From Candidatus Merdivivens pullicola (GTDB lineage Bacteria; Bacteroidota; Bacteroidia; Bacteroidales; UBA932): a stretch of DNA of 64,000 nucleotides. The stretch covers positions 19,179 to 83,178 of the forward strand of contig JADIMA010000036.1 in the NCBI GenBank assembly GCA_017694945.1, written 5' to 3'. The position numbers were made by a program, and so were the translations under genes. The notes below the pieces were generated by a model that saw only the letters and a list, made by a program, of their open reading frames with translations, made no database searches and had not been told where the DNA came from. Shown piece by piece: positions 46,301 to 47,017 of this stretch. The first letter of the stretch is position 1, and every line of letters starts with the position of its first letter.

Positions 46301-46492
46301 GTGATTATTGTACCAGTAAAAGAGGGCGAAAACATTGAAAAGGCTCTTAAGAAATTCAAAAGGAAATTCGAGAAAACCGGTGCTCTCCGCGAGCTCCGCG
46401 CCAGGAAGACTTTCGTGAAACCATCTGTCAAGAGAAGGGAAGAAATCAAGAAAGCCATTTATGTACAGCACATGCAGCTTCGTGACGAATAA
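46301..46492 (+). CDS. rpsU: 30S ribosomal protein S21 (GTG start)
   Basis: IIVPVKEGENIEKALKKFKRKFEKTGALRELRARKTFVKPS. Confidence 0.97.
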   Translation: MIIVPVKEGENIEKALKKFKRKFEKTGALRELRARKTFVKPSVKRREEIKKAIYVQHMQLRDE

Positions 46493-46514: not shown

Positions 46515-46547
46515 GCCGTGTCCCGAACAGGGGCGCGGCTTTTTTTT
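46515..46547 (+). terminator. Rho-independent terminator after rpsU
   Basis: GCCGTGTCCC-GAACA-GGGGCGCGGC followed by T8. Confidence 0.92.
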
Positions 46548-46551
46548 GATT

Positions 46552-46910
46552 ATGATTATCCGCAAAATACCCCTTATGTGCATGGGGGGGGGGAAAGTGC
46601 CTCCGGCAGTATGCGTCGGGCATGGCGGTCTGCATTGCGTAACGGCATGAAGCGCACGCAAGGCCACGCCCCGACTTAACTTTTGTTTATACAACACATT
46701 GTAAATCAGGAATAAATAATAAGCATCCCGAAAAACAAGTGTGGATTTCAAGGGCTTCCCGACCCCTCAGAATCCACACTTATAAAATATTGTTACAGTA
46801 GCAATTCACTATATATCAATATATTGCAACATTTTTAAATTAAGTCGGGGCGTGGCGCAAAGAAGGCGTACCCGGTTATTCTTCAAGGGGTATTTTTGCG
46901 GATAATCGTA
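46552..46910. mobile_element. Candidate MITE-like/nested inverted-repeat element (non-coding)
   Basis: Outer IR 46554-46575/46885-46907, inner perfect 17-bp IR 46663-46679/46840-46856, central hairpin 46737-46747/46771-46781, flanking 10-bp direct repeat TTTTTTGATT. Confidence 0.6.
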
Positions 46911-47017
46911 TTTTTTGATTTGCAAAAGCATACCTATGGGTGCCTTGCAGAAGTTTATTTTGGAAATATTCTGTTTTTTCCCTAAATTGCATTGTTTCAT
47001 TCTTAAAGCATATCATT

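Follow-up and report, generated by a model that had tools for sequence, protein, structure and literature searches.

REP and REPIN families are usually regarded as tied to one vertically inherited RAYT and as slow to spread, and a MITE does not require its parent transposase in the same genome. In REP systems, each RAYT gene is known to have one repeat family of its own (PMC6006769), and REPINs appear to conserve both spacer length and hairpin capacity (PMC3116915). Biochemically, E. coli TnpA-REP has been reported to act on single-stranded DNA (PMC6006769 and references there). For Bacteroidetes, that paper remarks briefly, and without detail in its text, that genes of TnpA-REP subclass 2.6 (RAYT group 5) are flanked by 'atypical secondary structures' that recur elsewhere in the same genome (PMC6006769). 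In TIRYTs or TIRtrons, long inverted repeats take the place of REPs on either side of a RAYT-like gene, and some of these have repeat families elsewhere (PMC3733652). Capture of one mobile system by another is represented in mammals by the MER6 MITE, which carries a SINE V domain (PMC6887750).

We describe a repeat unit in Candidatus Merdivivens, a Bacteroidales genus described from chicken gut, which we read as two unrelated mobile systems combined in a chimera, an IS1595-type MITE shell carrying a RAYT-type core (probability about 0.83). Comparisons were made within its own genome (G000; 1.89 Mb, assembly 93.7% complete), with two relatives of the same genus, Candidatus Merdivivens pullistercoris (G001) and 'Muribaculum' sp. 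An289 (G002), and with more distant members of the family.

A nested repeat unit downstream of rpsU

The window, a 64,000-nucleotide stretch of contig JADIMA010000036.1, contains at 46552-46909 a nested inverted-repeat unit made of two elements, one enclosed by the other, as seen in the raw sequence and by comparison of copies (Table 1). The outer arms reported in the preliminary description (46554-46575 and 46885-46907, inverted, with one 1-base indel) are present in the raw sequence, and the repeat proved longer than first noted, extending to about 46552-46576 and 46885-46909 (AYGATTATCC...). The perfect 17-bp inner pair, the 11-bp central stem and the 10-bp direct repeat at both flanks were likewise found where they had been placed, and duplications also flank other copies. 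A terminator scan places the rpsU terminator so that the insertion falls within its T tract, as had been proposed, and this terminator is left intact by the window copy. The G10 run of the left module is likely slippage-prone.

Table 1. Features of the composite unit and its surroundings (window coordinates)
Feature	Position	Strand	Basis
rpsU (ribosomal protein S21), upstream neighbour	46301..46492	+	63-aa ORF with S21 sequence; named from sequence
rpsU intrinsic terminator, 10-pair stem and T8 tract; the T tract holds the insertion	46515..46547	+	terminator scan
Left target-site duplication TTTTTTGATT	46542..46551	+	sequence; flank analysis across copies
Left outer (IS1595-type) terminal inverted repeat, consensus AYGATTATCCGCAAAAATACCCC, one A missing here	46552..46576	+	also bounds autonomous IS1595 transposons
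Variable left module, length and content differing among copies, G10 at 46584-46593	46577..46662	+	copy comparison
Left inner (core) arm GCCACGCCCCGACTTAA	46663..46679	+	sequence; arm search
Core, 190-bp RAYT-associated repeat element, type I	46665..46854	+	length, conservation, RAYT flanking, tree
Conserved internal motif ATTGTAAATCA	46698..46708	+	core alignment
Central hairpin (stem 46737-46747 / 46771-46781) with A tract before it; position kept, sequence differing among core families	46731..46781	+	
Conserved internal motif around AATTCACTATATATCAATATATTG	46803..46826	+	core alignment
Right inner (core) arm, inverted	46840..46856	-	sequence; arm search
Right module, near-constant length among copies	46857..46884	+	copy comparison
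Right outer (IS1595-type) terminal inverted repeat	46885..46909	-	sequence; outer-repeat search; flank analysis
Right target-site duplication TTTTTTGATT	46911..46920	+	sequence; flank analysis

Homologue searches of this genome and its relatives found the unit in many copies, so it is not a single-copy sequence lacking homologues. Roughly 30-50 full or partial copies occur in its own genome, where a search with the window element gave 59 matched pieces, most of the long matches having 79-93% identity. There were 56 matches of the outer repeat versus 0 for a reversed control, and 85 of the inner arm versus 7 for its control. The single-stranded DNA fold of 46552-46910 is 8 SD better than that of dinucleotide shuffles, and the recurrence in the genome excludes chance more directly than such folding. 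The proposal of a non-autonomous MITE/BIME-like element with a target duplication and no transposase inside was right, except that two different elements are present instead of one, a MITE shell and a RAYT-associated core of REP/REPIN- or BIME-like kind.

The rpsU locus of the other Merdivivens genomes offered no clean empty allele of the window copy, since that of G001 is too diverged and that of sp. An289 carries a different repeat. The rpsU-xerC intergenic region of sp. An289 (L220:1151-1320) holds another RAYT-type element where the window has the composite, and the spot seems prone to repeat insertion.

The outer shell

Elements bounded by inverted copies of AYGATTATCCGCAAAAATACCCC are numerous in two Merdivivens genomes, where they range from about 80 to 400 bp and have very different interiors. 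Their ends are terminal inverted repeats (TIRs) of about 23 bp, with A+T-rich target duplications of 8-10 bp; a best-duplication score of at least 8 was obtained for 35% of 26 elements, versus 6% when left and right flanks were mis-paired. In some TIR copies (L094-L096, L105), ragged internal deletions have removed the core.

Shell ends were present in 38 of 300 genomes of the bacterial family, and complete IS1595 parent elements were found in this search only in genomes of genus g23. One complete transposon (G209:C6) is 7,581 bp long, with perfect GATTATCCGCAAAAATACCCC ends and the duplication AAAAAGATT; another (G171:C10) is 3,241 bp long, with the duplication AAAAAATG. Their proteins match DDE_Tnp_IS1595 (E 8e-20 and 2e-16) and Zn_ribbon_IS1595, above the Pfam cut-offs, and 21 of 21 positions agree between the ends of the G209:C6 transposon and both the window copy's right end and the family consensus. 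Since identical or near-identical ends bound transposase-bearing IS1595-type elements in relatives, the shell is a non-autonomous IS1595-family element (MITE). Both transposons also carry other genes; the passengers of the larger one (L265, G209:C6:5300-13400) include a radical SAM/SPASM protein, and two other examined ORFs there had no Pfam match.

A relative of the transposase of these two transposons was found neither in the unit's own genome, whose assembly is 93.7% complete, nor in G001 or G002, and the single-ended TIR loci read in the own genome showed no transposase-like ORF beside them. With no IS1595 transposase of this kind in the own assembly, present mobility is unproven. In genus g7 genomes, the same outer ends bound non-coding TIR elements of 690-1,090 bp (L258-L262, L266, L267), unusually long for MITEs; we considered these as parents and rejected them, as they have no transposase ORF. 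Two TIR elements of ~168 bp in G001 (L131, L136) share the outer ends and have another interior, a long palindrome starting GCAGTAATTGCCACGGACAG. Additionally, a palindromic module around GGTTCACTTTCCCGG was seen both inside TIR elements and beside solo cores (L120:16-327; flanks of L063, L076 and L079).

The inner core and its RAYT genes

The core also exists without the shell at unrelated loci, and such free cores are present in all three Merdivivens species; in sp. An289, none of the 16 cores has an outer end. All 33 solo cores are 189-191 bp long and 26 of them exactly 190 bp, these 26 having a mean mutual divergence of 34%. Under neutral decay many changes of length should have accumulated, yet the cores are fixed in size, so their length is probably under constraint. 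In the core alignment, conservation is seen in both inverted arms (15-17 bp), in a pair of internal A+T-rich motifs, in an A tract and in the central hairpin, at fixed spacing.

The three Merdivivens genomes have 28, 20 and 9 copies of the pattern GACTTAA-N(150-168)-TTAAGTC, and a search of 45 further genomes of the family gave no copy. When 84,980 GTDB genomes were scanned for the exact pattern, 15 stretches were returned, all on contigs of the two named Merdivivens genomes save one on a 3-kb contig. This contig, DXGG01000003.1 (L107), is filed as Ca. Onthomorpha and bears a Merdivivens-type core with an outer end; it is probably mis-binned. A further core family, type II, with arms GGAACGGGACGACTTAA, fills TIR elements of ~392 bp in G001. 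The foot of the hairpin and the outer arm appear coupled, as GTGG/CCAC in type I and GTTCC/GGAAC in type II, a coupling broken by one type II copy (L110).

Both arms are better read as putative sites for protein binding than as halves of an RNA stem, since the base at the degenerate position 4 (A or G) of one arm is independent of that in the other: the combinations GG, GA, AG and AA were seen 18, 8, 6 and 4 times, against an expectation of about 17, 9, 7 and 3. We accordingly rejected arm base pairing as the main selected feature. No convincing target duplications were detected at the core (2.3 versus 1.7 for the control). Insertion of the core into palindromic targets was also rejected; TTCAGGC[core]GCCTGAA is seen at RAYT-adjacent copies and is not general (mean flank complementarity 4.3 versus 4.2 for the control). 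The arms are compatible with degenerate attC boxes, and one of the internal motifs is similar to dif; we judged this to be no more than a resemblance to integron attC or dif-like sites.

These features bear on whether the unit is a structured or cis-regulatory RNA, such as a 3'-end or terminator element, that was spread by a transposon and whose long stem is selected as RNA. The strong folding, the central hairpin with its flanking A/T tracts and the position of several copies just downstream of genes would fit such an RNA; the preliminary description had named a structured RNA as an alternative. However, Rfam gave no family at gathering level and, at relaxed thresholds, sub-threshold chance matches only, and the RNAalifold pair counts had a covariation term that was nearly nil (-0.55). 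Furthermore, arm position 4 has no pairing preference, the terminator scan calls the rpsU terminator only and not the core hairpin, and core length is locked even in unpaired stretches. We consider this explanation very unlikely.

The preferred reading, a RAYT-type core within a MITE shell, draws on the genes that cores adjoin. Two cores enclose a ~285-codon RAYT gene, at a spacing of tens of bp, in both the own genome (C76:18070-18918) and sp. An289 (C35:71372-72220), and the two proteins are 80% identical. The G001 orthologue (C29:2833-3678) has the downstream core, and its upstream flank continues without interruption (TTTCAGGCCTGAACC), consistent with an empty site. The proteins have the HUH pair (NHVH) and the tyrosine (YVLRNP) of Y1 transposases, the histidines and the tyrosine being invariant in 10 homologues, and a conserved C-terminal helix-turn-helix-like stretch. 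The NCBIfam model for REP-associated tyrosine transposase (NF047646) matched with E-values of 2e-6 to 2e-7, short of its curated cut-off; for Pfam Y1_Tnp, the RAYT is below the cut-off and relatives are above it. A sequence comparison with solved structures gave no match. Judged by these motifs and profile matches, the core-flanked gene is a predicted Y1 HUH transposase of RAYT type.

A paralogous RAYT of sp. An289 (C31) has a different element family on both sides, in the same layout and with other arms (CCACCCCATAGCCAG). This family has the hairpin TTGGGTAC/GTACCCAA, and one of its copies lies downstream of rpsU in sp. An289. As the core flanks RAYT genes in three genomes, and as the paralogous RAYT has its own, different family, the core is a REP/REPIN-like element of a poorly described Bacteroidetes type. 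An internally deleted RAYT pseudogene lies beside a type II-like arm in G001 (L218, G001:C23:22672-23024), and the type II repeats of this genome may have lost their RAYT.

Origin of the composite and comparison with known systems

In a maximum-likelihood phylogeny built from 62 type I cores, a single clade (supports 99/94) contains all 29 TIR-borne cores, which were contributed by the own genome, G001 and the stray contig and mostly sit on short end branches. All RAYT-flanking cores and 21 of the 28 solo cores fall outside this clade, most on longer branches. In the seven solo cores inside it, outer ends were undetected; some of these cores are located at the end of a contig or next to rearranged flanking sequence. 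Some solo cores are orthologous across species, such as L079 of G002 and L082 of G001, as is the RAYT-downstream core of G000 and G001. The confinement of the 29 TIR-borne cores to a single short-branched clade suggests one capture followed by a burst, and the simplest history is that one old core was captured by an IS1595 MITE before G000 and G001 split and then spread as cargo.

The tree also bears on a reading of the unit as a plain IS1595-type MITE, with inner palindromes that are the rearranged interior of its parent and an incidental likeness to RAYT-flanking repeats. MITE interiors often drift, and different interiors are indeed found in further TIR elements of G001 and genus g7. However, the core is found without ends in all three species, including every core of sp. 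An289, and cores flank RAYT genes in all three genomes; TIR-borne cores nest within free-core diversity, and the free cores outside the TIR clade already contradict a plain MITE. We therefore hold this reading to be highly improbable. An inverton, in which the 190 bp enclosed by the 17-bp inner arms would be flipped by a recombinase, is scarcely credible: the perfect inverted arms lie at a fixed distance and one core is reversed, but this is a single copy among the composites compared, we noticed no dedicated invertase in the neighbourhood of those copies that were read, and the copies occupy unrelated loci. The core of that copy (L020, G000:C35:8136-8440) is reversed relative to the shell modules, probably by one inversion across the inner arms.

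We observe two nested sets of inverted ends, duplications at the outer ends only, and cores that bound RAYT genes. For the chimera of shell and core, these observations suggest two modes of transposition. A trans-acting IS1595 transposase would recognize the ~23-bp ends, insert the unit into A+T-rich DNA and duplicate 8-10 bp, a catalytic role suggested by the shell ends, the duplications and the transposase-bearing partner that we observed. By analogy with E. coli TnpA-REP and from its family membership, we infer that the RAYT mobilizes the core as single-stranded DNA, acting, or once having acted, on its folded form. Since its capture, the core would have multiplied mainly as shell cargo, which could account for the short branches of the TIR clade.

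More tentatively, the core may represent a distinct RAYT-dependent class, about 170-190 bp long and length-locked. Its members would share two arm sites and two internal motifs, each family having a central hairpin of its own, and the class would have diversified alongside paralogous RAYTs in these Bacteroidales. On this extended and rather doubtful proposal, the Merdivivens composite would be doubly mobile, by HUH single-strand transposition through the core and DDE double-strand transposition through the shell, and capture would have given an ageing REP-like family a new burst.

Compared with described IS1595 insertion sequences and MITEs, the shell is alike in having terminal repeats identical to those of transposase-bearing elements of the same family, A+T-rich duplications of 8-10 bp, where about 8 bp is expected of such a MITE, and no gene inside. 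In contrast, it encloses an entire element that belongs to a different transposition system, and no parent transposase was found in its own genome. The core resembles a REPIN as an extragenic inverted pair at fixed spacing that forms an intragenomic family and flanks its cognate RAYT, with one family per RAYT. It is longer, at 190 bp versus 71-110 bp in REPINs, and differs in its long central hairpin, its two conserved internal motifs and its moderate copy number. In a canonical REPIN, each site is itself a palindrome of 20-40 bp bearing a GTAG/GTGG foot. Because no GTAG foot was recognized and the arms are not self-palindromic and form no hairpins by themselves, the core is not a canonical REPIN.

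Among RAYT groups, the available description of TnpA-REP subclass 2.6 is close in that a Bacteroidetes RAYT is flanked by unusual structures copied elsewhere in the genome. Of the motifs given there for the subclass (NH[LIV]H and YIH[QN]NP; PMC6006769), the Merdivivens NHVH fits and YVLRNP does not, which leaves the subclass uncertain. The layout recalls TIRYTs and TIRtrons, in which a RAYT-like gene also lies between inverted repeats rather than REPs. However, the Merdivivens gene has a complete 190-bp element on each side, and the arms, GGGGYGTG, do not fit GGGGWSAS (PMC3733652).

A search of the open-licence literature found no case of a bacterial RAYT repeat amplified inside a MITE, which is no proof of priority. 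The main value of the composite is the captured RAYT-type core together with its length-locked anatomy. This anatomy (fixed length, arms, motifs and hairpin) makes the loosely described Bacteroidetes RAYT repeats readable, and the isolate-derived sp. An289, with several RAYT-repeat pairs, is suited to recognition testing. As in MER6, part of one mobile system has spread by capture in a DNA-transposon MITE; unlike MER6, which is eukaryotic and holds a retroelement part in a mariner MITE, the Merdivivens composite joins two DNA systems, both bacterial, one of which was captured as a complete unit. A REP-like unit riding in a cut-and-paste MITE represents a second route of amplification, comparable to that of SINE domains in mammalian DNA transposons.
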